This document shows, piece by piece, positions 4,340-53,796 of a stretch of DNA of 64,000 nt; the first letter of the stretch is position 1; the number at the start of each line of letters is the position of its first letter. This stretch comes from Sneathia sanguinegens (GTDB lineage Bacteria; Fusobacteriota; Fusobacteriia; Fusobacteriales; Leptotrichiaceae), in NCBI RefSeq assembly GCF_001517935.1, contig NZ_LOQF01000003.1, positions 62,001 through 126,000 on the forward strand, read 5' to 3'. The position numbers and the translations under genes are program-made. Under the pieces are notes generated by a model. It ran no database searches, was not told the DNA's origin, and worked only from the letters and a program-made list of their open reading frames with translations.

Positions 4340-4406
4340 TATTGTTTTTTAGAGAATAAGTTGTAAAATATAGAAGAAATTTATTTGATGAGAATTTGCT
4401 AAAGAT

Positions 4407-4616
4407 ATGTTTGTTAGGATTGGAAGCTCGTATCATATTACTTTAGTACAATGGAATCATGATAAAGACCATGTACATATAATGTTCAAAGCTCATCCTA
4501 AAACAGAATTGACTAAATTCATAAATGCATATAAATCAGCAAGTTCACGGATAATAAAAAAAGAATTTCCAAATGTAAAAAAATATATAGAAGAACAAGG
4601 ACAAAGGATTAAATAA
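4407..4616 (+). pseudogene. tnpA: tnpA remnant (Y1 transposase, internally deleted)
   Basis: Only 69 codons remain of a family normally about 130-155 residues long. The HUH-type motif HVHIMF (in DKDHVHIMF) that binds the catalytic metal is present, followed by the conserved stretch on FINAYKSASSRIIKKEFP. After that the sequence jumps to KKYIEEQG, which normally lies beyond the catalytic tyrosine, so the segment carrying that tyrosine is gone. The N-terminal beta-strand region is also missing. The protein cannot be an active single-strand transposase. It lies 19 bases upstream of tnpB on the same strand. Confidence 0.85.
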
Positions 4617-4635: not shown

Positions 4636-5775
4636 ATGAAACAGCTAAAAGCATATAAATTTAGAATTTATCCAAGCGATGAACAAAAGATATTTTTTAG
4701 TAAAACTTTTGGTTGTGTTCGCCTTGTATATAATCTTATGCTAAATGATAGAATTAAAGCATATGAAGAAAGTAAGGGTAATTCTGATAAAAAATTAAAA
4801 TATCCTACTCCTGCAAAATATAAAAAAGAGTATGAATTTCTAAAAGAAGTTGATAGTCTTGCTCTTGCTAATGCTAAAATGAATTTAGATAAAGCATACA
4901 AAAACTTTTTTAGAGATAAGACTATAGGTTTTCCGAGATTCAAATCAAAGAAAAATACAGTTCAAAGCTACACAACAAACAACCAAAACGGAACTGTAAA
5001 TATAGTTGGAAAGCATATTAAAATTCCTAAATTAAAATCGCTAATAAAAATAAAAATACATAGAGAAATAAAAGGAATAATAAAGTCAGTAACAATATCG
5101 CGAGTAGCAAGTGGAAAATATTATGTATCTATCTTGTGTGAGACAGAAATAAATGAACTTCCTAAAACTAATTCAAACATTGGAATTGATTTAGGACTAA
5201 AAGATATGATGATATTATCAAATGGAGAAAAAGTAGGTAATAAAAAATTTAGTAGAAAATTAGAGAGAAAATTAAGAAGAGAACAAAGGAAATTATCAAG
5301 AAAACAAGAAGTAGCAAAAAAAGAAAAAAGAGATTTGAAAGAATGTAAAAATTATCAAAAACAAAAAATCAAATTGGTGAAGATACACGAAAAAATTATG
5401 AATAGTCGTAATGATTTCTTAAATAAGTTGAGTACAGAAATAATCAAAAGCCACGATATTATCTGTATAGAAGACTTAAATACAAAGGGCTTATTACAAA
5501 ATCATAAATTAGCAAGAAGTATAGCTGATGTATCATGGTATAAACTAATAAATAAATTAGAATACAAAGCTAAATGGTACGGAAAAGAAATTATAAAAAT
5601 AGACAGATGGTATCCATCAAGTCAAATATGCTCTGTATGTGGAGAAAATACAGGTAAGAAAGCTCTAAGTATAAGAGAGTGGACTTGTCCATTTTGTAAT
5701 ACAACACACGATAGAGATATAAATGCAGCGAAAAATATATTAGCTGAAGGTTTAAGAATAAGACAAGCAGTCTAA
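4636..5775 (+). CDS. tnpB: TnpB, RNA-guided RuvC-like nuclease of an IS605-like element
   Basis: TnpB proteins are the transposon ancestors of Cas12: guided by an RNA made from the element's 3' end, they cut DNA next to a short motif and so favour retention of the element. The 379-residue length is normal and the frame is intact. RuvC catalytic residues are in place: D185 (GIDLGLKD), E279 (ICIEDLNTKG) and D361 (THDRDINAA). A zinc finger with C332, C335, C351 and C354 lies between the last two. The N-terminal helix-turn-helix start (KQLKAYKFRIYPS) is canonical. The start ATG at 4636 has GAGGGATG upstream. Everything needed for a functional nuclease is visible although its partner tnpA is broken. 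Confidence 0.93.
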   Translation: MKQLKAYKFRIYPSDEQKIFFSKTFGCVRLVYNLMLNDRIKAYEESKGNSDKKLKYPTPAKYKKEYEFLKEVDSLALANAKMNLDKAYKNFFRDKTIGFPRFKSKKNTVQSYTTNNQNGTVNIVGKHIKIPKLKSLIKIKIHREIKGIIKSVTISRVASGKYYVSILCETEINELPKTNSNIGIDLGLKDMMILSNGEKVGNKKFSRKLERKLRREQRKLSRKQEVAKKEKRDLKECKNYQKQKIKLVKIHEKIMNSRNDFLNKLSTEIIKSHDIICIEDLNTKGLLQNHKLARSIADVSWYKLINKLEYKAKWYGKEIIKIDRWYPSSQICSVCGENTGKKALSIREWTCPFCNTTHDRDINAAKNILAEGLRIRQAV

Positions 5776-5903
5776 AAGAAAGTATAAAGAACCGTAGGAA
5801 CTACGGGGATAGCTTGGTAAATATAGTTACAAAAATAACTACTTCCCAAGAAGAAGCTCCCACTTCAAAAATTACAAAGTAATTTTAAGTGGGAGAGGTT
5901 CAC
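5700..5903 (+). ncRNA. Probable omega RNA (reRNA) and right-end hairpin of the tnpB element
   Basis: In this family the guide RNA overlaps the 3' end of tnpB and runs to the right end of the element, with the guide copied from flanking DNA. Here 5776-5903 is noncoding and strongly structured. The final hairpin pairs CTCCCACTT (5857-5865) with AAGTGGGAG (5887-5895) and continues after a two-base bulge with AAAATTA (5868-5874) and TAATTTT (5880-5886) around a CAAAG loop. The DNA just after 5903, inside the broken symporter gene, would be the guide. The 5' limit is an estimate. Confidence 0.6.
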
Positions 5904-6515
5904 TTATAGAAAATACTTCGCCAGTATAAGTTAGTTCGCATATAATACCAAAAATATGTATAGGTAATAAGGGGATTATAAAATAATTTAAAATTCTTGT
6001 AACTATCATTTCAAAATCATTGAAAATATTGAAAGTTGTTTCTCCAATTTTTTCTTTTCTCATATAACTTATAGTAATTCCTACCATAAATGCAAAAACT
6101 ATAGCCGTTGTAACATCTAATGCTGGTGAAAGAGGTATAGTGAAATATGGTGAAACTAGCATTGAATTGTTAGAAATAGTATATTGTAAGCTTTTAACAA
6201 GATCGGTAGATACTAAATTTGGGTAAAAGTTAAAAGCTACTGTATATGAAAATAAGCCGGCAATAATAGTTGAAATATATGAAATTCCAGCTGTTAATGC
6301 TAGTAAAATTCCTGCCCCTTCAGATAAACGAGCAATTCCAATTACAACAAAACCAATAATCATAAAAGGTATAAAAAAGCTAAAAAGCTACCAAAAAAGC
6401 TTGTGAAAGTTTTAAATATTCTAACAAAACTAAGGGGTAAAAAATTACCAAGTATAATTCCTAAAAAAATTGCAAAAATTAACCTTATAACAAGACTGAA
6501 TTTAAGCTTTTTCAT
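5904..6515 (-). pseudogene. Dicarboxylate/amino acid:cation symporter (DAACS/GltP family), truncated and frameshifted
   Basis: An ATG at 6515 with a perfect AGGAGG upstream begins a DAACS N-terminus (KKLKFSLVIRLIFAIFLGII). After about 45 codons the frame is lost at a run of six A on the plus strand (6373-6378). One more base would restore it into the second part, whose reading frame is open to 5872 and contains the family's transmembrane segments and SPALDVTTAIVFAF. About 200 of roughly 400 residues remain, because the C-terminal half is replaced by the right end of the IS element. The missing half is not present on the other side of the IS, so a deletion accompanied or followed the insertion. 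Confidence 0.85.
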
Positions 6516-6712
6516 ATGAAACCTCCTAATTAAAAAATTATATTATATTATATCAAAATTTTTAAATTTTTCAATTTAATGAAAAAAAGTTAAAAAAGTG
6601 TAAAAGTTCAATTTTAAAATAAAAAAATGAAAAATTAACAAAAAATAAAATTAAAACAAGACAAAGTTAAATATTTTAAATTAATTTTTGAGGGTAAGTA
6701 GTGATTTTATGA

Positions 6713-6718
6713 TATAAT
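6713..6718 (+). promoter_or_regulatory. -10 element upstream of first coiled-coil OMP gene
   Basis: TATAAT at 6713-6718, 29 bases before the ATG at 6748, in a 232-base A/T-rich spacer that contains no other feature I can name. No good -35 is seen at 17 bases; the nearest candidate is TTGAGG at 6687-6692. Confidence 0.5.
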
Positions 6719-6747
6719 AAGAATAATCTAAAATGGGGGAATAAAAT

Positions 6748-9207
6748 ATGAATAAACTTGCAATAACATCTATTTTTTTAACTTCTGTACTTTATGCAAA
6801 TGTGCATGGGAATGTAGAAGCGTTTAATAATAATCAATATAAGATAAATAGTAACAAATTTTCAGCTAAAGAAACAGGTATTAATGCTGAAGTGGAAGTT
6901 TTGGGCTTTAAAATAGGAACACATTTAGTAGCACAAGATGATTTTAAAAAATTTACTTCAAGTAATGTTTATGCTCAATATACAACACCTGCATACAAAG
7001 GAATTAAAGGTGAATTTAGAGGTAAAGCTTCTTTAGGAGCTCAATTAGAATTAGGAACAAAACTTATTTACGAACCTGTGAAAGATTTAGAATTAAGTTT
7101 TGCTAGTACATTTAATCCTGGTATAAATGGAAAGACTTTAGAATATAAAAATGTATTGACTGACGAAGGTGTTACAATAGAAAAAGATAGCGAAACAAAA
7201 TTGTTTGCTCATTCATATGTATTTGAAGCAAAATATACAAAAGATACTTTAAAAGTAATAGGAGATTTATTACTTCAACATGTAAATGAAAGATATGAAA
7301 AAAAGAAACCAAACCAAGTAGAAGCTCTTGAAAAAAATATTGATAAATTAAGAAAAACAAAAGAATTATTGGAAAAAAATAAAGAATTAAGAGAAATAGC
7401 AAAAGCATCAAAGGAAGAATTTGAAAAAGTAAATGTTACAGAAGAAGAAGCTAATAAGATTAAGACAGACTACACTACAAAGGAAGAAGAATTAAAAGCT
7501 AAGAGTGCTGAAAAAGATAAAAAACAAAAAAATGTAGATGAATTACAAAATGAACTAAATGAGTTAAAAGCACAAGTAGATGCAAATAAAATTACAGAAG
7601 AAGTTAAAGCATTGAAAGAAAATCAAGATGCTATTTCTAAAGAATTAGATAACTTGAAACAAGAAAATGCAAAATTAACAAATGAAAAAAAAGAAAATGA
7701 AAAATTAAAAGCTAAAAAAGAACAAGAAAAAAATAGCCATTTAGATAAATCAAAACAAATTAAAGATAGTATTTCACAAGGAAATAAAGATATTGAAACT
7801 CTTAAAAATGAAATAAGTAGTTCTGAAAATAGTTTAAAAAATCTAAAAAAAGAACAAGAAATCTATAAACAAATAGATAAAATTGATGAAAAGATAGCAA
7901 AATATGAAAAAGAATTAGAAAGTTCAAGTAAGACATATGTAGATTTACAAAAACTAAAAACAGTCTATGAAAAATTTTTAAAAGCAGAAGAAAAAGAACA
8001 AAACAAATCTTTTGTTGCAACTTTATTAAACAAAGTCTTTTCTAAATTAAAAACAAAAACTGAAGAAAAAATAAAAGAATACGAGAAAAAAGATGAAAAA
8101 CTATCTAAAACATATTCAGAATTACAAAATATGAAAAAAGCAAAAGAAATGTATGAAAATCGTTTAGAAAGTAAAGATATAAAGAAACAAATAGAAAATG
8201 CAAAAAAGAAAATAAAAGAAGAAAAAGAAAAATTAGAAATTAATCAAATAGCTGATAGGATAGTTTTAAACTATATAAATGAAACAGAATTAACTATAAG
8301 TACAATAGATAATAAGATAGAAGAATTAAATTCTAAAATAGAAGAAAATCAAAATGAAATTGCTAAAAAGTATAAAGAATACGATGACAAGTTTAAGGCG
8401 ATAACTAAAAAAACAACTCTAAAGAATTTAAATAATAACCTTAGTGAAAAAGATAAAACTATAAAAAATAAAGAAGCAGAACTTGAAGCAGCTAAAACTA
8501 GCTTGCAACAATTAAGTGATGAAGAAAATACTTTAAAAAATGATTTTGATGCTTTATCAAATAAAAAAGCTGGTATTGAAAATAAGAAAGATAAAAAAGC
8601 AAAATTTGATGAAGATAATAAAAACTTAACTGATAATGAAACTGAGTTGAAAAAAGAAGTATTTACTGGTGAAATTAATGCTGAAAATGTAGAAAATAAA
8701 CTTAAGGAAGTAAATGCTGAAATTGATATAAAAGAAAGAACTAAAGAAGAACAAATAAAAGATATAAATGAAAATCCATATAATAAAATGGAAGAAAATA
8801 CAATTTATGTTGGAGCAAAATTAGGTGTTGAATATGCTTATAAAAATCTTGGTGTTGAAGGTAAATTGACATTAGGAACAGCATATAAATCAGTAAAAAA
8901 AGATAAGGAAAAAGTGGTAAGTGAATTTATGCCTTATGCAAAATTAAATGGAAAAATTAACTATAATTTTGAAGTTAAGAAGAACATATTCATAGTACCA
9001 GAATTAAGTGGGCAAGTAACAGCAGACAAATTAACAACAAGTGATTTGAATATTAAATATAGCTTAACGCCTAAGGTAGCATTTAAATGTACACCAGTAA
9101 ATAACCTATTAATCAGTGCTGATTTAGAATTAAGCAATAATTTTGAAAAAGTTCAATATAAGGAAAGTGCATTGGGAACAAATATAAGTATTAAATATAT
9201 GTGGTAA
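6748..9207 (+). CDS. Outer-membrane beta-barrel protein with long central coiled coil, paralogue 1
   Basis: An 819-residue secreted protein. Residues 1-17 form a signal peptide ending ...SVLYA. Residues about 18-185 are beta-rich with alternating hydrophobic/polar strands (for example FKIGTHLVAQ, SLGAQLELGTKLIYE). Residues about 190-670 are almost pure Glu/Lys-rich coiled coil with no cysteine. Residues about 676-819 are again beta-strands, ending in the aromatic SIKYMW typical of outer-membrane barrels recognised by BamA. I infer one barrel formed by both ends with the coiled coil projecting from it. No named family is recognised. It is the first of three tandem paralogues and differs from the other two in the coiled coil (about residues 270-520). 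An intrinsic terminator follows it. Confidence 0.85.
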   Translation: MNKLAITSIFLTSVLYANVHGNVEAFNNNQYKINSNKFSAKETGINAEVEVLGFKIGTHLVAQDDFKKFTSSNVYAQYTTPAYKGIKGEFRGKASLGAQLELGTKLIYEPVKDLELSFASTFNPGINGKTLEYKNVLTDEGVTIEKDSETKLFAHSYVFEAKYTKDTLKVIGDLLLQHVNERYEKKKPNQVEALEKNIDKLRKTKELLEKNKELREIAKASKEEFEKVNVTEEEANKIKTDYTTKEEELKAKSAEKDKKQKNVDELQNELNELKAQVDANKITEEVKALKENQDAISKELDNLKQENAKLTNEKKENEKLKAKKEQEKNSHLDKSKQIKDSISQGNKDIETLKNEISSSENSLKNLKKEQEIYKQIDKIDEKIAKYEKELESSSKTYVDLQKLKTVYEKFLKAEEKEQNKSFVATLLNKVFSKLKTKTEEKIKEYEKKDEKLSKTYSELQNMKKAKEMYENRLESKDIKKQIENAKKKIKEEKEKLEINQIADRIVLNYINETELTISTIDNKIEELNSKIEENQNEIAKKYKEYDDKFKAITKKTTLKNLNNNLSEKDKTIKNKEAELEAAKTSLQQLSDEENTLKNDFDALSNKKAGIENKKDKKAKFDEDNKNLTDNETELKKEVFTGEINAENVENKLKEVNAEIDIKERTKEEQIKDINENPYNKMEENTIYVGAKLGVEYAYKNLGVEGKLTLGTAYKSVKKDKEKVVSEFMPYAKLNGKINYNFEVKKNIFIVPELSGQVTADKLTTSDLNIKYSLTPKVAFKCTPVNNLLISADLELSNNFEKVQYKESALGTNISIKYMW

Positions 9208-9222
9208 TAAAATAGAATAGGA

Positions 9223-9253
9223 GTTGTTAAAAAAATTTAACAACCCCTTTTTT
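9223..9253 (+). terminator. Intrinsic terminator after OMP paralogue 1
   Basis: Perfect 9-bp stem GTTGTTAAA (9223-9231) with TTTAACAAC (9236-9244), a four-base loop, then CCC and six T. Only 32 bases separate it from the next start, and no promoter is evident there, so paralogue 2 probably depends on read-through or on an unrecognised start site. Confidence 0.85.
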
Positions 9254-9285
9254 ATGGGAATTTTAGAATATAAATGGAGGATCTT

Positions 9286-11607
9286 ATGAATAAAATCGCA
9301 ATAACATCAATTTTATTAGCTTCTGTACTTTATGCAAATGTACATGGTAATGTCGAGGCATTTAATAAAAATCAATATGAAATTAATAATAATAAATTTT
9401 CAGCTAAAGAAACAGGTATTAATGCTGAAGTAGAAGCTTTAGGCTTTAAATTAGGAGCACATTTAGTTGCTCAAGATAATTTTACTCACTATACTTCAAG
9501 TAATGTATATATTAAATATACAACGCCTGCATATAAAGGAGTTACAGGAGATTTTAAAGGAGAAATATCTTTAGGAACTAAGGCAGAATTAGGAGCAAAA
9601 ATTAACTATGAAATTGCTAAAGATTTAGAATTAAGTTTTGATAGTACGTTTAATATAGGTATAAATGGAAAAACTTTAGAATACAAGAATGTGTTAACAG
9701 ATGAAAATGTTAGAATAGAAAAAAATAAGGATACAAAACTATTTGCTCATTCATATGTACTTGAAGCAAAATATACAAAAGATAATTTAAAAGTAATAGG
9801 AGATCTATTACTTCAACATGTAAATGAAAGATATGAAGAAAAAAGACAAAATCATGTAGAAGCAGAAATAGAACAATTAAAGAAGAAAAAAGAATTATTA
9901 GAAGAGAATAAAGTATTAAGAGAAAAGTTTAATGCTTCAAAAAAAGAATTTGAAAAATCAAATGTAACAGAAGAAGAATTAAAACAAGCAAAACAAGATT
10001 ATGATAAAAAAGAAGAAGAATTAAAAGCTAAGAGTGCTGAAAAGAAAAGTAAACAAGAAGAAGTAGATAAACTAGAAAAAGAAATTAAGCCATTAGAGGA
10101 TGGGTTGAAAGAAAAAATAAAAAATGAACAAGAATCAGAAGCAACAGCTAAAAAAGCATTTGAAACTGCAGATAATGAATATAAGGCAGCTAAGCAAAAA
10201 GAACAACAAGCATTTACAGAATTAAAGCAATTACATCAAGAAAATCAAAAATATAATGTTGATGAATTAACTAAAGAAAGAGCAAAAAAAGAAAAAGAAA
10301 AGGAACCATACAAAAATCATATAAATGAATATCAAGGTAAAGTAACTAATTTAAAAAATAAAATTAAAGAAGAGATAAAAAAGAAAATTGAAGAAATTTG
10401 TGCAGGATTGCAATCTGAAGAAATAAAAAGTAAAATAAAAACTTTGGAAAAAACAATAAATAACAATGAAGGTAAAACACAAGAAAAAATTGATGAGTTT
10501 TTAAGCAAAAATGTAGATTTAATTACAAAAGAAGTAGGATTAGGAAAAAAATTAAAAGACTTTGCTAATGAAATTAATAAAAACGAAGAAACTGTTAGAA
10601 CAGTTTCAGATATTTTGAAAAGTGAAGAAAATAAAATTCAACAATTAGATAATGAAATAAAAGAAATAGATGCAAAAATAGCAAAAGTTAATGAAAATAA
10701 AAAAGCACTTGATACAAAGCAAAAGGAATATGATAATGCAAAAAAAATATCAGGTGAAAAACAAGATAATAAAACAAAAAAAGAAACAGAATATAATAAA
10801 AAGAAAGCAGATAGAGAAGATGTTGAAAAAACATATGATAAAATTGCAGAACTTAAAGATAAAAGAGCAGAACTTGAAGCAGCTAAAACTAAGTTAGCGA
10901 GCTTAGAGAAGGAAGAAAATACTTTAAGAACTGAATTAAGTAATGCATTGAATAAAAAGTCAGCTCTTGAAAAAAAGATGACTGATAAAAATACTAAAGA
11001 AGCAACATATAATCAAGATAAGCAAAACTTGACTGATAATGAAACTAAATTGAAGAAAGAAGTATTTACTGGTGAAATTAAGGCTGAAGATGTAGAAAAG
11101 AAACTTAATGAAATAAATGCTGAAATTGAGAAAAAAGAAAATAATAAAGATCAAGATAAAGAAGTTTTAGAAAAAAATCCATATAAAATGGAAGAGAATA
11201 CAGTTTATTTTGGAGCAAAATTAGGTGTTGAATATACTTACAAAAATCTTGGCGTTGAAGGTAAATTAACATTAGGAACAGCATATAAATCAGTTAAAAA
11301 AGATAAGGAAAAAGTAGAAAGTAAATTTATGCCTTATGTAAAATTAAATGGAAAAATTAACTATAATTTTGAAGTTAAGAAAAACATATTCATAGTACCA
11401 GAGTTAAGTGGACAAGTAACAGCAGACAAATTAACAACAAGTGATTTGAATATTAAATATAGCTTAACGCCTAAGGTAGCATTTAAATGTTTACCATTAA
11501 ATAACCTATTAATCAGTGCTGATTTAGAATTAAGCAATAATTTTGAAAAAGTTCAATATAAGGGAAGTGCATTAGGAACAAATATAAGCATTAAATATAT
11601 GTGGTAA
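9286..11607 (+). CDS. Outer-membrane beta-barrel protein with long central coiled coil, paralogue 2
   Basis: The ATG at 9286 (NKIAITSILLASVLYA, signal peptide) is preferred over an in-frame ATG four codons upstream because GGAGGATCTT sits just before it. The protein is 773 residues: N-terminal beta region to about 185, coiled coil to about 630, and a C-terminal beta region of about 144 residues ending SIKYMW. Its N-terminal region is the most divergent of the three (VTGDFKGEISLGTKAELG instead of the FRGKASLGAQLELG shared by the others). Its coiled coil matches paralogue 3 closely and its C-terminal domain is almost identical to paralogue 1. A strong terminator follows. Confidence 0.85.
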   Translation: MNKIAITSILLASVLYANVHGNVEAFNKNQYEINNNKFSAKETGINAEVEALGFKLGAHLVAQDNFTHYTSSNVYIKYTTPAYKGVTGDFKGEISLGTKAELGAKINYEIAKDLELSFDSTFNIGINGKTLEYKNVLTDENVRIEKNKDTKLFAHSYVLEAKYTKDNLKVIGDLLLQHVNERYEEKRQNHVEAEIEQLKKKKELLEENKVLREKFNASKKEFEKSNVTEEELKQAKQDYDKKEEELKAKSAEKKSKQEEVDKLEKEIKPLEDGLKEKIKNEQESEATAKKAFETADNEYKAAKQKEQQAFTELKQLHQENQKYNVDELTKERAKKEKEKEPYKNHINEYQGKVTNLKNKIKEEIKKKIEEICAGLQSEEIKSKIKTLEKTINNNEGKTQEKIDEFLSKNVDLITKEVGLGKKLKDFANEINKNEETVRTVSDILKSEENKIQQLDNEIKEIDAKIAKVNENKKALDTKQKEYDNAKKISGEKQDNKTKKETEYNKKKADREDVEKTYDKIAELKDKRAELEAAKTKLASLEKEENTLRTELSNALNKKSALEKKMTDKNTKEATYNQDKQNLTDNETKLKKEVFTGEIKAEDVEKKLNEINAEIEKKENNKDQDKEVLEKNPYKMEENTVYFGAKLGVEYTYKNLGVEGKLTLGTAYKSVKKDKEKVESKFMPYVKLNGKINYNFEVKKNIFIVPELSGQVTADKLTTSDLNIKYSLTPKVAFKCLPLNNLLISADLELSNNFEKVQYKGSALGTNISIKYMW

Positions 11608-11615
11608 AAATAAAT

Positions 11616-11650
11616 AAGTGAGATTATAGAGATATAGTCTCACTTTTTTA
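11616..11650 (+). terminator. Intrinsic terminator after OMP paralogue 2
   Basis: Stem AAGTGAGA (11616-11623) with TCTCACTT (11638-11645) and a run of T to 11650. Confidence 0.85.
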
Positions 11651-11671
11651 AATATTCTTAAATTTTCATTT

Positions 11672-11764
11672 ATTTAAAATTGACAAAATAAGTAAAAATT
11701 AAAAAAAATCGTGGTTTTTATTGAATATAAAACATTTTTATCCATTTAAAATTGACAAAATAAG
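11672..11764 (+). repeat. 21-bp direct repeat upstream of OMP paralogue 3
   Basis: The same 21 bases, with core TTAAAATTGACAAAATAAG, occur at 11672-11692 and 11744-11764, 72 bases apart. Each contains TTGACA but no -10 is found 16-19 bases downstream of either copy, so they are not simple promoters. They could be binding sites for a regulator or the trace of a duplication. They are not seen in front of paralogues 1 and 2. Confidence 0.6.
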
Positions 11765-11792
11765 GGGTAAATTTAAAAATATTAAATTTTTT

Positions 11793-11821
11793 TAGTAAAA
11801 ATTCAATTTTTATGGTATAAT
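11793..11821 (+). promoter_or_regulatory. Probable promoter of OMP paralogue 3
   Basis: TATAAT at 11816-11821 with a weak -35 (TAGTAA, 11793-11798) 17 bases upstream. It lies 32 bases before the ATG at 11854, and GGAGGA provides the ribosome site. Confidence 0.5.
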
Positions 11822-11853
11822 TTATTAAAATAAAAAACGACGGAGGAACAGAT

Positions 11854-14184
11854 ATGAATAAAATCGCAATAGCATCTCTATTTTTAACTTCTGCACTTTA
11901 TGCAAATGTTCATGGAAATGTAGAAGCATTTAATAAAAACCAATATACTATAGATACTAATAAGTTTTCAGCTAAAGAAACAGGTATTAATGCTGAAGTA
12001 GAAGTTTTAGGGTTTAAATTAGGGACACATTTAGTTGCTCAAGATAATTTTACAAAATATACTTCAAGTAATGTTTATGTTCAATATACAACACCTGCAT
12101 ATAAAGGGCTTAAAGGTGAATTTAGGGGGAAAGCTTCATTAGGAGCTCAATTAGAATTAGGAACAAAACTTATTTATGAACCTACTAGTGATTTAGAAAT
12201 AAGTTTTGCTAGTACATTTAACCCTGGTATAAATGGAAAAACTTTGGAATACAAGAATGTATTGAAAGATGAAGATGTTAAGATAGAAAAAAATAGCGAT
12301 ACAAAACTATTTGCTCATTCATATGTAATTGAAGCAAAATATACAAAAGATAATTTAAAAGTAACAGGAGATTTATTACTTCAACATGTAAATGAAAGAT
12401 ATGAAGAAAAGAAACAAGATCAAATAGAAGATTTAGATAAAAATATTGATAAATTAAAGAAACAAAGAGATTTATTAACTGCTAATAAGAATTTAAGAAA
12501 AAAGGCTGACACTTCAAAAGAAGAATTTGAAAAAGTGAAAGTAACAGAAGAAGAATTAAAACAAGCAAATCAAGATTATGATAAAAAAATGAATGATTTA
12601 AATCAAAAAATTAACGATAAAAAAGAAGAAACAAAAAAAATAAGTGATTTGGAAAAAGAAATATCTCCATTAGAAAATGAATTAAATGAAAAAATAAAAA
12701 AAGAACGAGAAGCAGAAGCAGTAGCTAAAAAAGCATTTGAAAATGCAGATAATGAATATAAGGCAGCTATGCAAAAAGAACAACAAGCATTGACAGAATT
12801 AAATCAAATAAAGGCAGAAAGTGAAAAATATAAAGTTGATGAATTAACTAAAGAAAAAGAAAATAAAGAAAAAGAAAAGAAATCACCTCAAGATGAAATA
12901 AATACGTTTAAAAATAGTTTAAATGATAAAAAAAATGAAATTAAAAACGAGATAAAAAATAAAATTGCAGAAATTTGTACAGGATTGAAATCAGAAGAAA
13001 TAAAAAGTAAAATAAAAACTTTGGAAGAAACAATATATAAAAATGAAGGTAAGACACAAGAAAAAATTAACGAGTTTTTAAGTGAAAATAAAGACTTAAT
13101 TGGAAAAGAATCAGGTTTAGAAGAAAAATTAAAAAGTTTTGCTGATGAAATTAATAAAAAAGAAGAAACTGTTAGAAATGTTTCAAATACTTTGAAAAAT
13201 GATGAAAACAAAATTCAACAATTAGATAATGAAATAAATGAAATTGATGCAAAAATAAAAAAAGCTAATAAAAATAAGCAAGCACTTGATACGAAGCAAA
13301 ATGAATATGATAATGCAAAAAAAATATCAGGTGAAAAACAAGCTGATAAAACAAACAAAGAAACAGAATATAATGAAAAGAAAGCAGCTAGAGAAAATGT
13401 TGAAAAAACATATGATAAAATTGAAGAACTTAAAGGTAAAAGAACAAAATTTGAAACAGCTAAAACTAAGTTAGAAAGCTTAGAGAAGGAAGAAACTACT
13501 TTAAGAAATGAAAGAGATAATGCATTGAGAACAAAGACAGCTCTTGAAAAAAAGATGGCTGATAAAAATGCTAAAGAAGTAATCTATAATCAAGATATGA
13601 AAAACTTGACTGATAATGAAACTGAATTGAAAAAAGAAGTATTTACTGGTAAAATTAAGGCTGAAGATGTAGAAAAGAAACTTAATGAAATAAATAAAGA
13701 AATTGATAAAAGAGAAAAAAATAAAGATCATGATATAGAAATCTTAGAAAAAAATCCATATAAAATGGAAGCAAATAAAGTTTATATTGGAGCAAAATTA
13801 GGTGTTGAATATGCTTACAAAAATCTTGGTGTTGAAAGTAAATTGACATTAGGAACAGAATATAATTCACTTAAAAAAGATAAGAAAGAAATAGAAAAAA
13901 ACTTTATTCAATATGCAAAATTAAATGGAAAAGTTAATTATACTTTTGAAGTTAAGAAGAATATATTCATAGTCCCAGAATTAAATGGAGAAGTTAGTGT
14001 AGAAAAAGCAACTAAAAAAGATTTAGATGTTAAATATAGTTTAACACCTAAGTTAGCATTTAAATGCATTCCAGTAAAGAACTTGTTAATTGGTGCTGAT
14101 GTAAAATTAAGCAATAATTTTGAAAAAGTTGAATATAAGGGAAGTGCTTTAGGAACAAATATAAGTATTAAATATATGTGGTAA
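11854..14184 (+). CDS. Outer-membrane beta-barrel protein with long central coiled coil, paralogue 3
   Basis: A 776-residue protein of the same plan: signal peptide (NKIAIASLFLTSALYA), beta region to about 185, Lys/Glu coiled coil to about 630, C-terminal beta domain ending SIKYMW. The N-terminal beta region is nearly the same as paralogue 1 (FRGKASLGAQLELGTKLIYE), and the coiled coil follows paralogue 2 block by block (for example KAFE-ADNEYKAA and CTGLKSEEIKSKIKTLEE). The C-terminal domain has diverged from both (YNSLKKDKKEIEKNF, GEVSVEKATKKD). The three genes are therefore mosaics. It has its own promoter and terminator. Confidence 0.85.
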   Translation: MNKIAIASLFLTSALYANVHGNVEAFNKNQYTIDTNKFSAKETGINAEVEVLGFKLGTHLVAQDNFTKYTSSNVYVQYTTPAYKGLKGEFRGKASLGAQLELGTKLIYEPTSDLEISFASTFNPGINGKTLEYKNVLKDEDVKIEKNSDTKLFAHSYVIEAKYTKDNLKVTGDLLLQHVNERYEEKKQDQIEDLDKNIDKLKKQRDLLTANKNLRKKADTSKEEFEKVKVTEEELKQANQDYDKKMNDLNQKINDKKEETKKISDLEKEISPLENELNEKIKKEREAEAVAKKAFENADNEYKAAMQKEQQALTELNQIKAESEKYKVDELTKEKENKEKEKKSPQDEINTFKNSLNDKKNEIKNEIKNKIAEICTGLKSEEIKSKIKTLEETIYKNEGKTQEKINEFLSENKDLIGKESGLEEKLKSFADEINKKEETVRNVSNTLKNDENKIQQLDNEINEIDAKIKKANKNKQALDTKQNEYDNAKKISGEKQADKTNKETEYNEKKAARENVEKTYDKIEELKGKRTKFETAKTKLESLEKEETTLRNERDNALRTKTALEKKMADKNAKEVIYNQDMKNLTDNETELKKEVFTGKIKAEDVEKKLNEINKEIDKREKNKDHDIEILEKNPYKMEANKVYIGAKLGVEYAYKNLGVESKLTLGTEYNSLKKDKKEIEKNFIQYAKLNGKVNYTFEVKKNIFIVPELNGEVSVEKATKKDLDVKYSLTPKLAFKCIPVKNLLIGADVKLSNNFEKVEYKGSALGTNISIKYMW

Positions 14185-14192
14185 CACAAAAG

Positions 14193-14219
14193 GAGTTGTC
14201 ATTTGACAACTCTTTTTTT
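14193..14219. terminator. Intrinsic terminator after OMP paralogue 3
   Basis: Stem GAGTTGTC (14193-14200) with GACAACTC (14205-14212), four-base loop, seven T to 14219. The T run overlaps the last codon of the convergent DUF3800 gene, so the hairpin probably serves both strands. Confidence 0.85.
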
Positions 14220-15090: not shown

Positions 15091-15312
15091 TTAAAAAGAA
15101 AGATCAAATTGTATTCCATCAAATTGAGTTTTATATGAAATACCTAAAATTTTTTTATTATTTTTACCTTTCAGTATCTTTGATACTGGGATAATTTTTT
15201 CTATATTATTAAGTAATACATTTTCTTCAAAAAGTGAATTCTCAGACATTATTGTTAGAATAAGATCGCTATAAGGTTTTTTATATCTAACAAAAATGTG
15301 TGTACTTTCCAT
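15091..15312 (-). CDS. Small hypothetical protein
   Basis: A 73-residue protein beginning ESTHIFVRYKKPYSDL. The ATG at 15312 is chosen because GGAGGGAGGC lies directly upstream; the frame extends 30 codons above but without a ribosome site and inside the preceding gene. It is basic at the N-terminus, has no transmembrane segment or recognisable domain and ends FDGIQFDLSF. It overlaps the upstream gene by 26 bases, which implies coupled expression, and a terminator follows. I do not recognise it; it may be an accessory subunit of the upstream protein. Confidence 0.6.
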   Translation of the reverse strand: MESTHIFVRYKKPYSDLILTIMSENSLFEENVLLNNIEKIIPVSKILKGKNNKKILGISYKTQFDGIQFDLSF

Positions 15313-16390
15313 AGCCTCCCTCCTCAAGAAATTTAAGAAATGCATTAACTCGTTTAGAAACATAATAAGATAGGTTGTAATAATGACTTTTTTCTTTTTC
15401 ATTTAAGTCTTTAAAGTCCTTTTTCTTTAAAGTTAAAAGATTTTCATTTAAGTTTTTGATAAATAAAAAGAATAAATCATTTTTAAGGTTAGTTGTGGAT
15501 AGAATATATCTATTTTCTGTAGTCCACCAAAGTTTGTTTATATTTGAATCTGAGCAAAGATAAATATATATTTTATTTTTATCAATTTTTTTAAATTCAT
15601 CAAAAGTATTTTTAATGTGTAATCTATATTTTTTCTTAAAAAAAATACTAGATAGACTGAACATAAAAAATTTAAAATCTTCTTTTGTGATATCATCTAT
15701 GAAAATTTCTATTTTTTTTATTTCTTTTTTTCCTTTCAAGAAAAATTTCTTTTTATTTTCTAAAATTTCATAGGTATAAGTGTTTATATCACTTTCTTTA
15801 AAAAAAACTTTGTTTGTATATGAAATAGTATGTAAATTTTTACGGCAGTCTGTTAAATAGTTCTTATATTTATCTAAGGATATTTTAGAATTTTTCAAGA
15901 TAAGCTCATCGAAAATAAGGGAAAATTTTTCATTTATTTCTTTATCGTTGAAAGTGCTGATAGAGAAATGAAAGTCATTTTCCTTTACAGTTAGAGCCTT
16001 AAAAGTATTTTTTAACATGAAATCCATTTTTGTATAATCAATTGTTTTATGTTTTTTAAAAGTTAACGAAGAAAAATGAAAAATTTTAAAATAGTTTGCC
16101 AAAAATATCAAATTCATTTTAAATAAATAATTAAAATCTTTATTTAATAAATAAGTTTTTCTTTTTTTTAATTCTTTTTTTAAATGTGTATATAGAAACA
16201 TTGAACTTAAATTGAAAATTTTAAGATTTAATATCTCATCTAAAATATTAAAATTATTTTCCACATTATTTGGACTATAGAATGAAAAAATATATTTAAA
16301 AAATTCTTCCTTATTCCTATAGTACAAATTTGAAAGGTCAAGTGAACTATATTCATTATTAAAAAAATTTTTGTAATTAAGTGTTTCCAT
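15287..16390 (-). CDS. Hypothetical protein, Phe/Lys/Asn-rich
   Basis: A 367-residue protein from the ATG at 16390; a TTG at 16477 would add 29 residues but would place the start inside a likely promoter. It contains no signal peptide or membrane segments. The composition is extreme (Phe, Lys, Asn and Leu) even for this genome. Repeated short amphipathic stretches and segments such as KIEIFIDDITKEDFKFFMFSL and NKIYIYLCSDSN suggest an alpha/beta cytoplasmic protein. No family is recognised. There is no clear Shine-Dalgarno before 16390. It forms a pair with the overlapping gene at 15091-15312, and a palindromic pair of sites lies upstream. Confidence 0.65.
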   Translation of the reverse strand: METLNYKNFFNNEYSSLDLSNLYYRNKEEFFKYIFSFYSPNNVENNFNILDEILNLKIFNLSSMFLYTHLKKELKKRKTYLLNKDFNYLFKMNLIFLANYFKIFHFSSLTFKKHKTIDYTKMDFMLKNTFKALTVKENDFHFSISTFNDKEINEKFSLIFDELILKNSKISLDKYKNYLTDCRKNLHTISYTNKVFFKESDINTYTYEILENKKKFFLKGKKEIKKIEIFIDDITKEDFKFFMFSLSSIFFKKKYRLHIKNTFDEFKKIDKNKIYIYLCSDSNINKLWWTTENRYILSTTNLKNDLFFLFIKNLNENLLTLKKKDFKDLNEKEKSHYYNLSYYVSKRVNAFLKFLEEGGYGKYTHFC

Positions 16391-16420
16391 ATTATGATGA
16401 GTATAAAGAAAATAAAAAAA

Positions 16421-16473
16421 ATACGCATTGTATATTCTTGAAAAAGAGGTCAAAAATATATAAAAATGCGTAT
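16421..16473 (-). promoter_or_regulatory. Promoter flanked by 9-bp inverted repeats (putative operator)
   Basis: ATACGCATT at 16421-16429 and its reverse complement AATGCGTAT at 16465-16473 are a perfect inverted repeat 35 bases apart. Between them on the minus strand lie TTGACC (-35, about 16446-16451) and a TATACA/TACAAT -10 at 15-17 bases spacing. GC-containing boxes stand out in this AT-rich spacer, so they look like repressor half-sites around the promoter of the hypothetical operon. Confidence 0.45.
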
Positions 16474-16496
16474 ACAAAGTCAGTAAAACAAGGGTG

Positions 16497-47355: not shown

Positions 47356-49089
47356 ATGAATTTATCAAAAGAGAAAAGAGAAAGACTTTTAAATTATTTA
47401 GAAAAATTAAAAGAAGGAAAAGAAGATGAAGATATTAGAATAATATTAGAAATTGAAAAAGCCTTAAATGAAAAGAAATATGGTTTAGTATGGGAAGAAC
47501 ATAGTGAAAAAGTAGACGAAGAATTAAAAACAAATATACCAGTATTTAAAGAAGTAGAAGAAAGAAAAATAGAAAAAGATAAAGAAAAAGCATATAACTT
47601 TTTACTAGAAGGAGATAACCTACATTCATTAAGACTATTAGAAAAGACACATAAGGGGAAAATAGATGTAATATATATAGATCCACCATATAATACAGGT
47701 AATAAGGACTTTATTTATAATGATCAATATGTAGACAAAACAGATGGCTATTCACATAGCAAGTGGCTAAGTTTTATGGAAAAAAGATTAAGAATAGCAA
47801 AAGAATTATTAACAGAAGAAGGAGTAATCTTCATTTCAATAGATGATAATGAACAAGCACAATTAAAGTTACTTTGTGATGAGGTGTTTGGGGGAGAGAA
47901 TTTTGTTTCAAGTATATGTGTAGAATTATCCAAAACACAAGGAATGAAAGTAAAGTCAGCACAAGAAGGAAGAATTGTTAAGAATCACGAATATATTTTT
48001 ATATATAGTAAAAATATAGAAAAGATATATATAGATAGAAAACCATTGTACGAAAAAACAGATATTTGGGACAATCATTTTAATAAAATAATTTTAAATT
48101 TAGATAATAAATACTATATATACACAATTGATGAATACATAAAAAATAATAATGAGAAGATATTTAAATTATTTCAAAAATATAATATTTTAGATAATGA
48201 AAAGATTACAAATAATAGCATAAGAAAAGGTATATTAATAAATGAAGAAATACAAAAATATTTTTATAATGATATTTCAGATATAATATATCAAGAAATG
48301 GCATGTAGTATTGCGATTCCAGAATATATAATTGAAAAATTAGAAAAAGAAAAGATATTAAAATATGAGAAATATTTATTAACCACAACATCTAGTGGTA
48401 AAATAAGACAATTAAGATCGCTTAAAGAAAATATTAATTTTTCTGATGATTATGATCCAAAATTGCAAAGAGTTACAATAAGAGGAGCATTGTGGAAAGA
48501 TTTTTACTCAGATATGATGAATATTCAAAAAGAAGGGAAAATGGATTTTAAAAATGGTAAAAAACCTATTAGACTTATAAAACAATTAAATAAATGGTTC
48601 AACAGAAAAAATTCAATAGTCTTAGACTTCTTCGCAGGATCAGGTACAACAGGACATGCAGTTGTACAGCTTAATAAAGAAGATGGTGGAAATAGGAAAT
48701 ATATTCTTTGTACTAATAATGAAAATAATATATGTGAAGATGTAACATATAAAAGACTTAGTAATATACAAGAAGAATTGCCACATAATTTAAAATACTA
48801 TAAGGTAGATTGTGTATCAAAATCAGATGAAGAAGTATATGAAAAATTAAATGAACATATACAAGAAATGGTGAATTTGGAAGAAGGAAAAGAAGTAAAA
48901 GTAATTTACGATGAAGAAGAAGTAGAAAAAGTATTAGAAGAAAGTGCTTGTGATAGTTCAGTATATATTATGGGTGGAATAATGTTAAGTGGTAAAGAAC
49001 AAAAAATAGTAGAAAAAAAGAGAATAAAGATAAAAGAGGTTCCAGAAATATATTATAGAAATGAATTGAAAGAGTTGGGAGAAATATAG
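47356..49089 (+). CDS. Type III restriction-modification methyltransferase Mod, copy 2
   Basis: A 577-residue adenine-N6 methyltransferase of the beta class: catalytic motif IV DPPY at residues 109-112 comes before the SAM-binding motif [11 protein letters not shown] (about 424). In between, residues about 185-420 form the target-recognition domain, unique to this copy ([15 protein letters not shown] at its start). The C-terminal 150 residues, from the FAGSG motif, are almost identical to copy 3 and would mediate dimerisation and contact with Res. The frame is intact. Promoter not seen; a GGAG site precedes the ATG. It could modify DNA alone or with the res product. Confidence 0.92.
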
Positions 49090-49304
49090 TATAGAAATAA
49101 TTAAAGATTGGTTAGATATGGCAATTATACTAAAAAAGAATGAGCAATATGGGCAAAAATAAGATTAGCTATAATTTATATAGATACAATCAAAAAATTT
49201 ATAAAATAGAGAGTTAAATTTTAATTTAATTATTGGACATCGTATAAATTATTTTTTTAAAAATTTAGATATAGAAACTTAATGAATATAAAAAAGAGGT
49301 TAAT

Positions 49305-50003
49305 ATGAAAGATTTTTTGGAAAATATCGATATTATAGATATAAATGAATATGCTGAAAAAGTAGAAAAAATGAGTCAAAATATGGAATCATTATTTAGT
49401 GATAATGCAGGAATACATAGAACAGCTTATTTAAGTTGGAATATGAGAGATATTATTGACTCGGAGGAAGAAAAATTAATATTTTTAGCTGATTCTTATT
49501 ATTTTGTTAGTAAAAAAACATTAGAAGAATGTTTTGAATGTTATGAAAATAGAGATGCAGATAGGCTGATTTTTCCTATATTATTTTGCTTTATTCAAAC
49601 TATAGAATTATATTTTAAAGCTATAATTATAGTGATGGAAAAAATTTCAGAAGAAAAAGATATTTCTATTTCAAAATATAGGCACAATTTAAATAAATTA
49701 TATGAATATATAAAAAAAAGAATGGAAAAAGAAGAAGGTTCGGAACAATTATTAACAGGATTAAATTTAATATATAATTTTATAAAAAATATATATGATA
49801 AAACAAATGATTTAACTTTTGTGAGATATCCTTATACAAATAAAGGAGAAGAACAATTTTATTTAAAACAAAGAGAAGTCATAGATTTAGATATTTTATA
49901 TGAAAATATGGAATATGTGTATAAAATGCTTGTATTTATATATTTAGATTATTCTAGTAAATTAGAAATTATGGAAGAAATGAGAAATTCATATTCATAT
50001 TAG
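49305..50003 (+). CDS. HEPN-like helical protein in the restriction locus
   Basis: A 232-residue, all-helical, acidic protein. The middle (LIFPILFCFIQTIELYFKAIIIVMEK, then SKYRHNLNKLYEYIKKRM) resembles HEPN-type folds, where such a hydrophobic helix followed by an HNL/HxL helix is common; the later FVRYPYTNKGEEQFY also recalls that group. The canonical RxxxxH ribonuclease motif is not obvious, so activity is uncertain. A ribosome site (AAAGAGG) precedes the ATG. It sits between two intact mod genes, 12 bases before copy 3, so it belongs to the island's accessory genes and may be a defence or antitoxin-like component. Confidence 0.6.
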   Translation: MKDFLENIDIIDINEYAEKVEKMSQNMESLFSDNAGIHRTAYLSWNMRDIIDSEEEKLIFLADSYYFVSKKTLEECFECYENRDADRLIFPILFCFIQTIELYFKAIIIVMEKISEEKDISISKYRHNLNKLYEYIKKRMEKEEGSEQLLTGLNLIYNFIKNIYDKTNDLTFVRYPYTNKGEEQFYLKQREVIDLDILYENMEYVYKMLVFIYLDYSSKLEIMEEMRNSYSY

Positions 50004-50014
50004 AAAGGTGGAAA

Positions 50015-51565
50015 ATGAATATATCAAAAGAAAGAAGAGAAAAACTTTTAAATTATTTAGAAAAATTAAAAGAAGGAAAAGAAGATGAAGATATTAGAAT
50101 AATATCAGAAATTGAGAAAGCCTTAAATGAAAAGAAATATGGATTAGTATGGGAAGAACATAGTGAAAAAGTAGATGAAGAATTAAAAACAAATATACCA
50201 GTATTTAAAGAAGTAGAAGAAAGAAAAATAGAAAAAGATAAAGAAAAAGCATATAACTTTTTACTAGAAGGAGATAACCTACATTCATTAAGACTATTAG
50301 AAAAGACACATAAGGGGAAAATAGATGTAATATATATAGATCCACCATATAATACAGGTAATAAGGACTTTATTTATAATGATCAATATGTAGACAAAAC
50401 AGATGGCTATTCACATAGTAAGTGGCTAAGTTTTATGGAGAAAAGATTAAGAATAGCAAGGGAGTTATTGATAGATGATGGTATTATTTATATAAGTATC
50501 GATGATAATGAACTATTTCAACTTAAACTATTATGTGATGAAATTTTTGGAGGAGCAAATTTTATAGCTAATTTTACAAGAACTACCAGAAAAGGTGGTG
50601 GAAGCATGTCTAAGTATGTTTCAACTGATCATGAATATATATTGCTATATTCTAAAGATATAACAAAAAAAAATAGATTTTATGTTCCTTTTGATGAAAA
50701 ATATTTAAAGCGTTATAATGAATCAGATGATAATGGTAAATATTTTTGGGATACATTTGCAAGGAATAGACAAGGGAGTTCAAATATTTATAAAATTGAA
50801 TTTCCTAATGGAGAATTAGTAGAAAATTCTTGGATATATAAAAAAGAAAAATTTCTTGAATTATTAAAAAAAGGAGATATTAGATTTAAAAAAATAGCTG
50901 ATGGAAAATATTCATTACAAATAAAGCAAAGATTAAATGAAAATGGACAAATAATGAGAAGTGAAATAAGAGATTATCCTAATTCTTTGGGAACAAAAAC
51001 ATTAGTAAATTTAATTGGTAAAGATAAATTTAACTATGCAAAGCCGATAGAACTAATAATGTATATTCTTAGTTTTTCTAACAAAAACTCCACAATCCTC
51101 GACTTCTTCGCAGGATCAGGTACAACAGGACATGCAGTGGCAAAGCTTAATGTTGAAGATGGAGGGAATCGTAAGTATATATTATGTACTAATAATGAAA
51201 ATAATATATGTGAAGATGTAACATATAAAAGACTTAGTAATATACAGGAAGAATTACCACATAATTTAAAATACTATAAGGTAGATTATGTATCAAAATC
51301 AGATGAAGAAGTATATGAAAAATTAAATGAACATATACAAGAAATGGTAAATTTGGAAGAAGGAAAAGAAGTAAAAGTAATCTACGATGAAGAAGAAGTC
51401 GAAAAAGTATTAGAAGAAAGTTCTTGTGATAGTTCAGTATATATTATGAGTGGAATAATGTTAAGTGGTAAAGAACAAAAAATAGTAGAAAAAAAGAGAA
51501 TAAAGATAAAAGAGGTTCCAGAAATATATTATAGAAATGAATTGAAAGAGTTGGGAGAAATATGA
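50015..51565 (+). CDS. Type III restriction-modification methyltransferase Mod, copy 3
   Basis: A 516-residue beta-class adenine methyltransferase. DPPYNTG lies at residues 109-115 and [10 protein letters not shown] at about 364. The target-recognition region (about 180-360; NFTRTTRKGGGSMS at its start) has no similarity to copy 2, so a different recognition sequence is expected. The N-terminal 150 and C-terminal 150 residues are near-identical to copy 2. AAAGGTGGAAA precedes its start, as it does mod copy 1. The stop overlaps the res start (ATGA), making it the copy currently coupled to the endonuclease. Confidence 0.93.
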   Translation: MNISKERREKLLNYLEKLKEGKEDEDIRIISEIEKALNEKKYGLVWEEHSEKVDEELKTNIPVFKEVEERKIEKDKEKAYNFLLEGDNLHSLRLLEKTHKGKIDVIYIDPPYNTGNKDFIYNDQYVDKTDGYSHSKWLSFMEKRLRIARELLIDDGIIYISIDDNELFQLKLLCDEIFGGANFIANFTRTTRKGGGSMSKYVSTDHEYILLYSKDITKKNRFYVPFDEKYLKRYNESDDNGKYFWDTFARNRQGSSNIYKIEFPNGELVENSWIYKKEKFLELLKKGDIRFKKIADGKYSLQIKQRLNENGQIMRSEIRDYPNSLGTKTLVNLIGKDKFNYAKPIELIMYILSFSNKNSTILDFFAGSGTTGHAVAKLNVEDGGNRKYILCTNNENNICEDVTYKRLSNIQEELPHNLKYYKVDYVSKSDEEVYEKLNEHIQEMVNLEEGKEVKVIYDEEEVEKVLEESSCDSSVYIMSGIMLSGKEQKIVEKKRIKIKEVPEIYYRNELKELGEI

Positions 51566-53796
51566 TAGGAATAAATTTGAAAGATTTTCAAGAAAGAACG
51601 GTAGATTTTTTAATAGATAAAACTATGGATTCAGAATCAAATAGAAGAATAATAGTGAAAAGTCCAACTGGTAGTGGTAAGACAATAATATTATTAAACT
51701 TTATTGAAAGATATCTTGATATATCTGATGCAGTATTTTGTTGGTTGTGTCCTGGTAAAGGTGAACTTGAAAAGCAATCTCTTGAAAAAATGAATAAATT
51801 TTGTCCTAATTTAAAGACTGGAGATATAGACAGTATAATAAATAATGGATTTGAATTGAATACAACATATTTTATTAATTGGGAAAAAATTACAAAAAGG
51901 GGTAATATTGCAATTTCAGACACAGAAAGAAAGAATTTGTTTGAAAGAATTGCAGAAGCACATTCACAACAGTTTCCGTTTATAATAATAATTGATGAAG
52001 AACATAATAATGATACTAAAAAAGCTGATGATATAATAAATAGTATAAATGCTAAATATGAAATAAGAGTTTCGGCTACACCTAATCCAAAATCTATTGG
52101 TGAAATATATGAAATAAAAGAAGAAGATGTAATTAATGAAGGTTTAATTACAAAATTTATGTATATTAATAAAGATTTAAATGAAGTTGAAATAGATGAT
52201 ATACAACATGAAACGAATATATTAATTGAAAAGGCAAATGAAATTAGAAAACAAGTAAAAGAAGAATATAGAAAAATAGGAGAGAATATTAACCCTTTAG
52301 TTTTAGTTCAATTTCCTAACTTAAATGATGATCTTATACAACAAGTAGAAGATAAATTAAATGAAATGGGATACAGTTATGAAAATGGATTGGTTTCTAG
52401 TTGGTTTTCATCAGCAGATAAAAAAGAAAAATCTAAAAAAATAGGTATAATTAATCTAAAAGATATAACGAATATTGATGGAAAACAAGATTTTCTTTTA
52501 TTTAAACAAGCAATTGCAACAGGTTGGGACTGTCCGAGAGCGAAAATTTTGGTAAAATTAAGAGAAAAAATGAGTGAAACATTTGAAATACAGACTTTAG
52601 GTAGACTAAGAAGAATGCCTAGGGCAATACATTATGAAGATGATATATTAGATTGTTCATATTTATACACATTTGATGAAAAGTATAAATTAGAAGTTAT
52701 TAACTCAGGTTTAGGTTGTGAAAAACAAAAAGTATTTTTGAAAAATGACGCAAAGGAAATAAAATTAATAAAGCAAACAAGAAAAGATGACTATCAATAT
52801 CAAGATGAAAAAAAAGTTAGAAAAAATATTTATGAATTTTTAAAGAAAAAGTATAAATTAGGAACGATAAAGGAAAATAATAAAAAGATTTTAGAAATAT
52901 ATGGATATGAGTTTGGAGAATATATTACAAAGACATATCTTAAAGGAAAATATACAACTTTTGAACAAATAACAAAAAGTAAAGATATATCAAAAATGAA
53001 TATAAAGATAGATACACACTTACATGGTATAGATTTGCAACATAATACAAATGAATTGAAAAAAACGATGGGGCTTTCATATGAAACAACTAATAAAATT
53101 TTAAGAACCTTATTTAAAAAAGGCTATGGTATTAATTCAAATAAATTACTTAATTTAAAATTAAGTGAATATTATACTTTCATAATTAATAATATTGATA
53201 AGTTAAAAGAAGTATTTTATGAATTTCAAGAAATAGAATTGCAAGATAGTGGTGTACAACAAATAAAAGAAGCTAAAGAAGATTACTTCTATATTCCAAA
53301 AGAAGAATATTATGACTTTATACCTAATTCAAAAAATGTAGAAATAATGAATTCAAATGTATATAAAGGATATAATACAAGTATGATAGTTGAAGGAATA
53401 AGAAGTAAGCCTGAAAGATTGTTTGAAAAATATTGTGAAAGTTCTGAAAATGTTAAGTATTTCTATAAAAATGGAGATAAAGGGACTGAATATTTATCAA
53501 TAGTGTATATTACTAATTTGGGAAAAGAAAGTCTTTTTTATCCAGATTATGTTGTCGAAATGAAAGATGGAACAATTTGGCTAATAGAAACAAAAGGTGG
53601 AGAATATAAAGGTCAAAGTAAAAATATTGATATACAAGTTGGAAATAAATTTAAAGTTCTTAAAAATTTTTGCAAAAGACATGGATATAATTTTGGCTTT
53701 GTAAGAGATGTAAATGATGAATTATATATTAATAACGAAAAATATGTAGATGATATGAAAAATGATAGCTGGAAGAAATTATCAAAAGTTATATAA
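51562..53796 (+). CDS. Type III restriction endonuclease subunit Res
   Basis: A 744-residue superfamily 2 helicase-nuclease. Walker A SPTGSGKT is at residues 34-41, DEEH (motif II) near 149, VSATPNP (motif III-like) follows, and ATGWDCPRAKILV with QTLGRLRRMP forms motifs V and VI. The C-terminal PD-(D/E)XK nuclease reads YPDYVVEMKDGTIWLIETKGG (about residues 660-680). It acts with a Mod dimer to translocate and cut DNA at unmodified sites. It is slightly short for Res (usually 850-1000). It is coupled to mod copy 3, and there is one res for three mod genes. Confidence 0.93.
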   Translation: MIGINLKDFQERTVDFLIDKTMDSESNRRIIVKSPTGSGKTIILLNFIERYLDISDAVFCWLCPGKGELEKQSLEKMNKFCPNLKTGDIDSIINNGFELNTTYFINWEKITKRGNIAISDTERKNLFERIAEAHSQQFPFIIIIDEEHNNDTKKADDIINSINAKYEIRVSATPNPKSIGEIYEIKEEDVINEGLITKFMYINKDLNEVEIDDIQHETNILIEKANEIRKQVKEEYRKIGENINPLVLVQFPNLNDDLIQQVEDKLNEMGYSYENGLVSSWFSSADKKEKSKKIGIINLKDITNIDGKQDFLLFKQAIATGWDCPRAKILVKLREKMSETFEIQTLGRLRRMPRAIHYEDDILDCSYLYTFDEKYKLEVINSGLGCEKQKVFLKNDAKEIKLIKQTRKDDYQYQDEKKVRKNIYEFLKKKYKLGTIKENNKKILEIYGYEFGEYITKTYLKGKYTTFEQITKSKDISKMNIKIDTHLHGIDLQHNTNELKKTMGLSYETTNKILRTLFKKGYGINSNKLLNLKLSEYYTFIINNIDKLKEVFYEFQEIELQDSGVQQIKEAKEDYFYIPKEEYYDFIPNSKNVEIMNSNVYKGYNTSMIVEGIRSKPERLFEKYCESSENVKYFYKNGDKGTEYLSIVYITNLGKESLFYPDYVVEMKDGTIWLIETKGGEYKGQSKNIDIQVGNKFKVLKNFCKRHGYNFGFVRDVNDELYINNEKYVDDMKNDSWKKLSKVI

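Follow-up and report, generated by a model that had tools for sequence, protein, structure and literature searches.

What kind of protein is built from two beta-rich ends around a long helical middle, and on which side of the outer membrane would that middle lie? The question is raised by three tandem genes in a stretch of 64,000 nucleotides from Sneathia sanguinegens (the window, in whose numbering positions are given unless another locus is named). The source genome is AT-rich and comprises 1.29 Mb in 32 contigs. To our knowledge, few surface proteins of Sneathia, a vaginal and bloodstream organism, have been characterised. Our analysis suggests that the three genes probably encode 16-stranded porin-like barrels whose fifth outward loop is a coiled-coil surface rod of 447-493 residues, most likely serving attachment or contact.

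Three intact genes with beta-rich ends and a heptad-repeat middle

All three open reading frames are intact and lie in tandem (Table 1). Each encodes a short signal peptide, a beta-rich N part of about 168 aa, a helical middle (493 aa in copy 1, 447 aa in copy 2 and 450 aa in copy 3) and a beta-rich C part of about 141 aa, which ends in SIKYMW in all three proteins. For copy 2, signal-peptide homology makes 9286, where the homologous MNKIAIT begins, the most likely start rather than the in-frame ATG at 9274.

Table 1 Features of the three tandem genes and their surroundings
Feature	Position	Strand	Description
Copy 1, split-barrel outer-membrane protein, 819 aa	6748..9207	+	N barrel part aa 18-185, coiled coil ~186-678, C barrel part ~679-819; boundaries via alignment to the copy 3 AlphaFold2 model
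Copy 2, same architecture as copy 1, 773 aa, insert 447 aa	9286..11607	+	
Copy 3, same architecture, 776 aa	11854..14184	+	AlphaFold2: strands 1-9 aa 20-185, helices 188-633, strands 10-16 aa 636-775
Putative signal peptide of copy 3, MNKIAIASLFLTSALYA; copies 1 and 2 equivalent	11854..11904	+	By-eye reading: n-region, hydrophobic core, small residues ahead of the cut
Coiled-coil insert of copy 3, aa 186-635, loop following strand 9	12409..13758	+	
Extended -10-like TGATATAAT and ribosome-binding site (ggggg), 5' of copy 1	6706..6747	+	Resemblance to consensus only
TGGTATAAT, resembling TGATATAAT, 5' of copy 3	about 11812-11820		Resemblance to consensus only
Terminator-like hairpin, copy 1/copy 2 gap	9219..9248	.	
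Terminator-like hairpin, 3' of copy 2	11616..11645	+	
Terminator-like hairpin, 3' of copy 3	14193..14212	.	

Heptad periodicity in the three middles reaches z values of 6.9, 7.7 and 10.6, equalled by 0 of 300 shuffles, the spectral peak lies near 104 degrees, where 102.9 is expected, and the flanks show beta alternation at z 3.0-5.1. Applied to the same three proteins, the test detected neither a heptad signal in the flanks nor beta alternation in the middles. These values, together with the measured insert lengths, bear out the original prediction of three tandem proteins with beta-rich ends, a KYMW C-terminus and a coiled coil of about 450-490 residues.

The flanks close into a single barrel in the model

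AlphaFold2 was run on the copy 3 monomer with an alignment of 10 sequences (copy 3 and nine relatives). The model shows a single 16-stranded barrel, with 9 + 7 strands around an all-helical middle and with strand 1 directly at the start of the mature chain. Strands 1-9 comprise residues 20-32, 37-51, 54-62, 69-79, 86-95, 99-111, 114-124, 151-165 and 168-185, and strands 10-16 residues 636-655, 658-675, 678-696, 704-717, 725-741, 744-757 and 760-775; the seven strands of the C part had already been counted by eye ahead of this result. The pLDDT is mostly 85-97 in the barrel blocks and mostly 75-92 in the helical insert, with a mean of 82.6. The pTM is only 0.46, as would be expected from a flexible long rod, and the course of the rod and its angle to the barrel are not fixed by the model.

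In Foldseek searches, the copy 3 barrel matches outer-membrane barrels, among them CymA (E 1e-8) and OmpG (target TM-score 0.55), and the insert matches the coiled coils of Rad50 and MukB; a search of a viral fold library returned almost exclusively coiled-coil proteins. The idea of one barrel split by a long coiled coil, for which structure prediction of the single chain had been proposed as a check, is thus upheld by the closure of the N and C parts of copy 3 and by these matches. No adhesive or head domain was recognised in the rod, and its tip (about aa 376-422, copy 3) consists of short helices only.

We also considered that these might be SMC-like cytoplasmic coiled-coil proteins misread as outer-membrane proteins, given weak NCBIfam SMC/Rad50 matches to the middle (best E 8e-8, far below the model cut-offs). 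We judge these matches to reflect coiled-coil composition. The signal peptide, the beta alternation, the C-terminal aromatic residue, the 16-strand model and the existence of coil-free barrel homologues all contradict a cytoplasmic protein, and that reading, which we hold to be almost certainly wrong, is largely refuted.

The insert is predicted to face outward

Outer-membrane barrels keep both termini in the periplasm and, as a rule, their outside loops are long and variable and their inside turns tight. Since the insert follows an odd strand (strand 9) of an even-stranded barrel whose termini lie at strand ends, it is placed on the face opposite the termini. Loop lengths across 22 family members give an independent view of the two faces: the standard deviations of the eight loops on the insert's face are 11.6, 5.8, 32.9, 7.4, 147, 6.9, 7.7 and 5.3, and those of the seven turns on the opposite face are 1.0, 0.5, 0.7, 2.4, 0.7, 1.2 and 0.2, with no overlap. 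The chance of such complete separation is 1 in 6435, assuming exchangeable loops. Lengths were taken as centre-to-centre strand spacing, and the alignment predates, and is independent of, the AlphaFold2 model. We note that, where the window proteins lack four strands, the MAFFT placement of their N parts relative to longer paralogues is uncertain, and that strands 6-9 of the 22-member alignment are unreliable; the order of loop and turn variation is unchanged without strands 6-9, and these strands of the alignment are not the sole basis of the topology claim.

A second model comes from a paralogue with its coiled coil elsewhere (L066:1510-3474). It has 20 strands and a 248-residue insert after strand 5, and its barrel matches OmpF/OmpC-type porins. 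In this model, the insert emerges on the same outer face as that of the window proteins. The original prediction had allowed the stalk to lie either outside the cell or in the periplasm. Strand parity, turn lengths and the indel pattern, joined by the second model, favour the former location and speak against the latter, so far as models and alignments can indicate.

The insert connects adjacent strands at its two ends, and the coil therefore has to run outward and return. Its simplest course would be an antiparallel hairpin, which by helix rise could form a rod of up to about 30 nm if fully extended, with about 210 residues in each arm. At about 30 nm, such a hairpin would be too long for the usual periplasm. 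The insert is assigned to the variable outward face both by strand parity, in two models whose insertion points differ, and by loop/turn variation, and no match to an SLH domain or another wall-binding family was found. We therefore consider it very unlikely that the coil is a spacer or tether on the periplasmic side, bridging outer membrane and cell wall in the manner of Omp-alpha or the OmpM stalk, even with the precedent of OmpM, a coiled-coil porin of deep-branching diderms that has such a stalk (PMC10628300).

A family with rods at two sites

The window proteins match no Pfam family at E up to 1 (whole proteins) or up to 10 (barrel parts), no NCBIfam family model describes them, and PDB sequence searches, run on both the whole proteins and the barrel parts, yielded no usable match. 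Pattern scans of genome contigs found no relatives; the patterns were poor, and near genomes were probably left out. A family profile was built from paralogues without a long insert at the window's site and searched against 98 Fusobacteriota genomes. It found the family in 10 of them, with strong matches in two Sneathia-like genomes and weak ones in a few other Leptotrichiaceae, several of the weak ones covering C-terminal strands only; the family was not found in the neighbouring family, to which most of the 98 genomes belong. Each of the two Sneathia-like genomes holds at least 12 members (a by-eye count, approximate owing to fragments). Elsewhere in the source genome lies a fourth relative (P0004), 35% identical to copy 2. 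One protein with a C-terminal match only (L076:454-4497, 1347 aa) was read and excluded as a different protein.

Insert length varies at two sites. At the window's loop (site B), it is about 6-40 aa without a rod and 149-508 aa with one; at site A (second outward loop), it is 7, 11, 14, 43, 78-108 or 248 aa, the inserts of 43-248 aa being helical. In a tree built on 381 mostly barrel columns, paralogues with rods at the window's site cluster apart from the paralogue whose rod is at the other site; support is 0.83 for the larger rod group, which includes one rodless protein, and 0.97 for one part of it. At least two separate gains of a rod are likely but not proven on this tree. Another barrel paralogue, L071:1426-3342, carries a short insert (about 149 aa) at the window's site, broken by an Ala/Thr/Pro-rich linker, and may be an intermediate or a degraded rod.

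Some paralogues have no insert at all. Their existence and the resemblance of the barrel fold to CymA, OmpG and OmpF/OmpC would suit porins with decorated loops, whose main job is nutrient diffusion and whose rods modulate access or trimer packing. This would leave rods of up to 493 residues unexplained, and we think it unlikely.

Variation and probable exchange among the copies

Relative to copy 1, the C part is 93% identical in copy 2 and 74% in copy 3, and the N part 78% and 86%, respectively; the middle of copy 1 is only about 19-35% identical to those of copies 2 and 3. Copies 1 and 2 are near-identical throughout the C part (92-100% per 40 aa), the N part is closer between copies 1 and 3, and the rod is closer between copies 2 and 3. 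This mosaic appears best explained by recombination among the copies. The rods are of near-neutral charge with few aromatic residues, a composition with no bearing on a ligand.

High variability of the rod alongside a conserved barrel, the lack of a visible head domain, and rod lengths that differ widely across paralogues would all fit a surface spacer or shield without a specific ligand, in which abundant rods keep a layer, mask the porin mouth or scatter antibodies. Variable adhesins are, however, equally expected to vary and to lack a head domain. We regard such a spacer as possible though doubtful, and as the main rival to adhesion.

A clear slipped-repeat phase-variation switch was not found in the window copies, whose tandem repeats are A-rich and mostly imperfect. 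In the closest related genome compared (G001, 1,330,224 bases), a barrel paralogue is frameshifted at a CAAGT pentamer run (L063:3030-3050; G001:C1 about 64030-64050) where its relatives are intact, and the run is a candidate slipped-strand on/off switch. Nearby, two adjoining barrel open reading frames (L063:3663-6354; G001:C1 64662-67350) comprise what seems to be a truncated gene that leads into one lacking its N-terminal part; the pair looks like the product of deletion or recombination inside a tandem array.

Genomic setting

In the related genome, the orthologous flanks are present (M20 peptidase, 68%; ABC-F, 65%) with an apparent sugar-transport operon between them instead of the array, and a pair of barrel paralogues lies about 2.8 kb upstream of the M20 peptidase. 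As far as two genomes show, the window array would be a species-specific arrangement.

Upstream of the array lie an IS605-type OrfB/TnpB gene (4636-5775), with an apparent TnpA-like remnant just before it (about 4397-4616), and, between the TnpB gene and copy 1, an apparent broken membrane-transporter gene on the minus strand (5872-6515), by eye dicarboxylate/glutamate symporter-like. Downstream, 15287-16477 encodes a conserved protein (counterpart at L087:7479-8591; about 370-396 aa) that adjoins a HAD hydrolase and an ABC-F gene in both species; the window protein matches no Pfam family. DNA methylase and ResIII/DEAD helicase genes at 47356-53796 have the make-up of a type III restriction-modification locus.

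A proposed path to the surface

The signal peptide would direct the chain to the periplasm, where the BAM machinery would fold the barrel. With the coiled coil replacing the fifth outward-facing loop (after strand 9), the rod would stand on the cell surface as a passenger displayed from its own barrel, much as in Hop or type 5f proteins, and would most likely mediate attachment to or contact with host or neighbouring cells. Sequence variation would be concentrated in this exposed rod, with copies reshuffled through recombination. The computations show the architecture, the helix periodicity, the face of the insert, the family and the variable second insertion site; the hairpin and its length, exposure of the rod on living cells and adhesion go beyond them as inferences, and for adhesin function taken alone we see about even chances.

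If the rods are outside, these proteins represent a second lineage in which a loop of the barrel became a large passenger on the surface, and the series of inserts from 7 to 508 residues offers natural intermediates showing how such insertions grow. The rods would be testable surface antigens and candidate adhesins for Sneathia, and the proteins a model for studying barrel folding by BAM when a coil of about 52-57 kDa has to cross to the other side.

Comparison with known systems

Hop or type 5f (Vf) proteins have a predicted 8-stranded barrel, and the extracellular loop linking its strands 1 and 2 is an alpha-helical passenger of 15-110 kDa (PMC8151025, PMC9289746), and BabA has a two-helix antiparallel coiled coil close to the membrane (PMC4643811). 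The original remark that no named family has this plan consequently holds for sequence (no Pfam or NCBIfam family) and fails for the plan itself, which has this precedent. Like BabA, SabA, HopQ and LabA, the proteins described here have, in computation, an interrupted barrel with a mainly alpha-helical passenger for one of its extracellular loops. They differ in that the insert follows strand 9 of a 16-stranded barrel or, in the modelled paralogue, strand 5 of a 20-stranded one, and the insert of the window proteins is a plain long coil with no visible head. No match to any of the Helicobacter OMP (Hop) Pfam families was found for the window proteins (E up to 1 for whole proteins, up to 10 for barrel parts). 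With a different barrel size, insertion point and sequence, the window proteins are not Hop members. A further trait in common is that Hop adhesins, too, occur as many paralogues within a small genome.

Stalked porins of the OmpM/SlpA type also combine a 16-stranded porin-like barrel with a coiled coil. In OmpM, the coil is N-terminal, trimeric and periplasmic, with an SLH domain (PMC10628300), whereas that of the window proteins lies inside the barrel sequence, on the predicted outer face and without an SLH match. FadA of Fusobacterium, from the same phylum, is a helical-hairpin surface protein, as is proposed for the window proteins, but its hairpin is small (111-129 aa), forms filaments and comes with no barrel (PMC13432900); the window proteins carry a barrel and show no FadA family match.

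Trimeric autotransporters (YadA, Hia; type Vc) resemble this plan in that a barrel holds a coiled-coil stalk outside the cell. The Vc barrel has 12 strands and is assembled from three chains; here, one chain forms the whole 16-strand barrel and the coil is a loop, and no Pfam match to the YadA-type anchor (four strands per chain) was found in the window proteins. Hia- and YadA-like proteins are the possible adhesins named in the genome paper on S. amnii, where the passages located make no mention of the window barrel family (PMC3535699). A literature search found no paper linking Sneathia with a coiled coil.

To general porins, the window proteins (CymA, OmpG) and the 20-stranded paralogue (OmpF/OmpC) show a resemblance of fold only. 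In sum, the plan looks like a barrel loop grown into a helical rod, previously known only from the unrelated Helicobacter adhesins and here in a larger version. We lean slightly towards a second, independently evolved subclass of interrupted-barrel surface proteins in Fusobacteriota, with a 16-20-strand porin-like scaffold bearing rods of varied length in at least two outward loops and with a diversity that arose through duplication and recombination within tandem arrays in small vaginal genomes.
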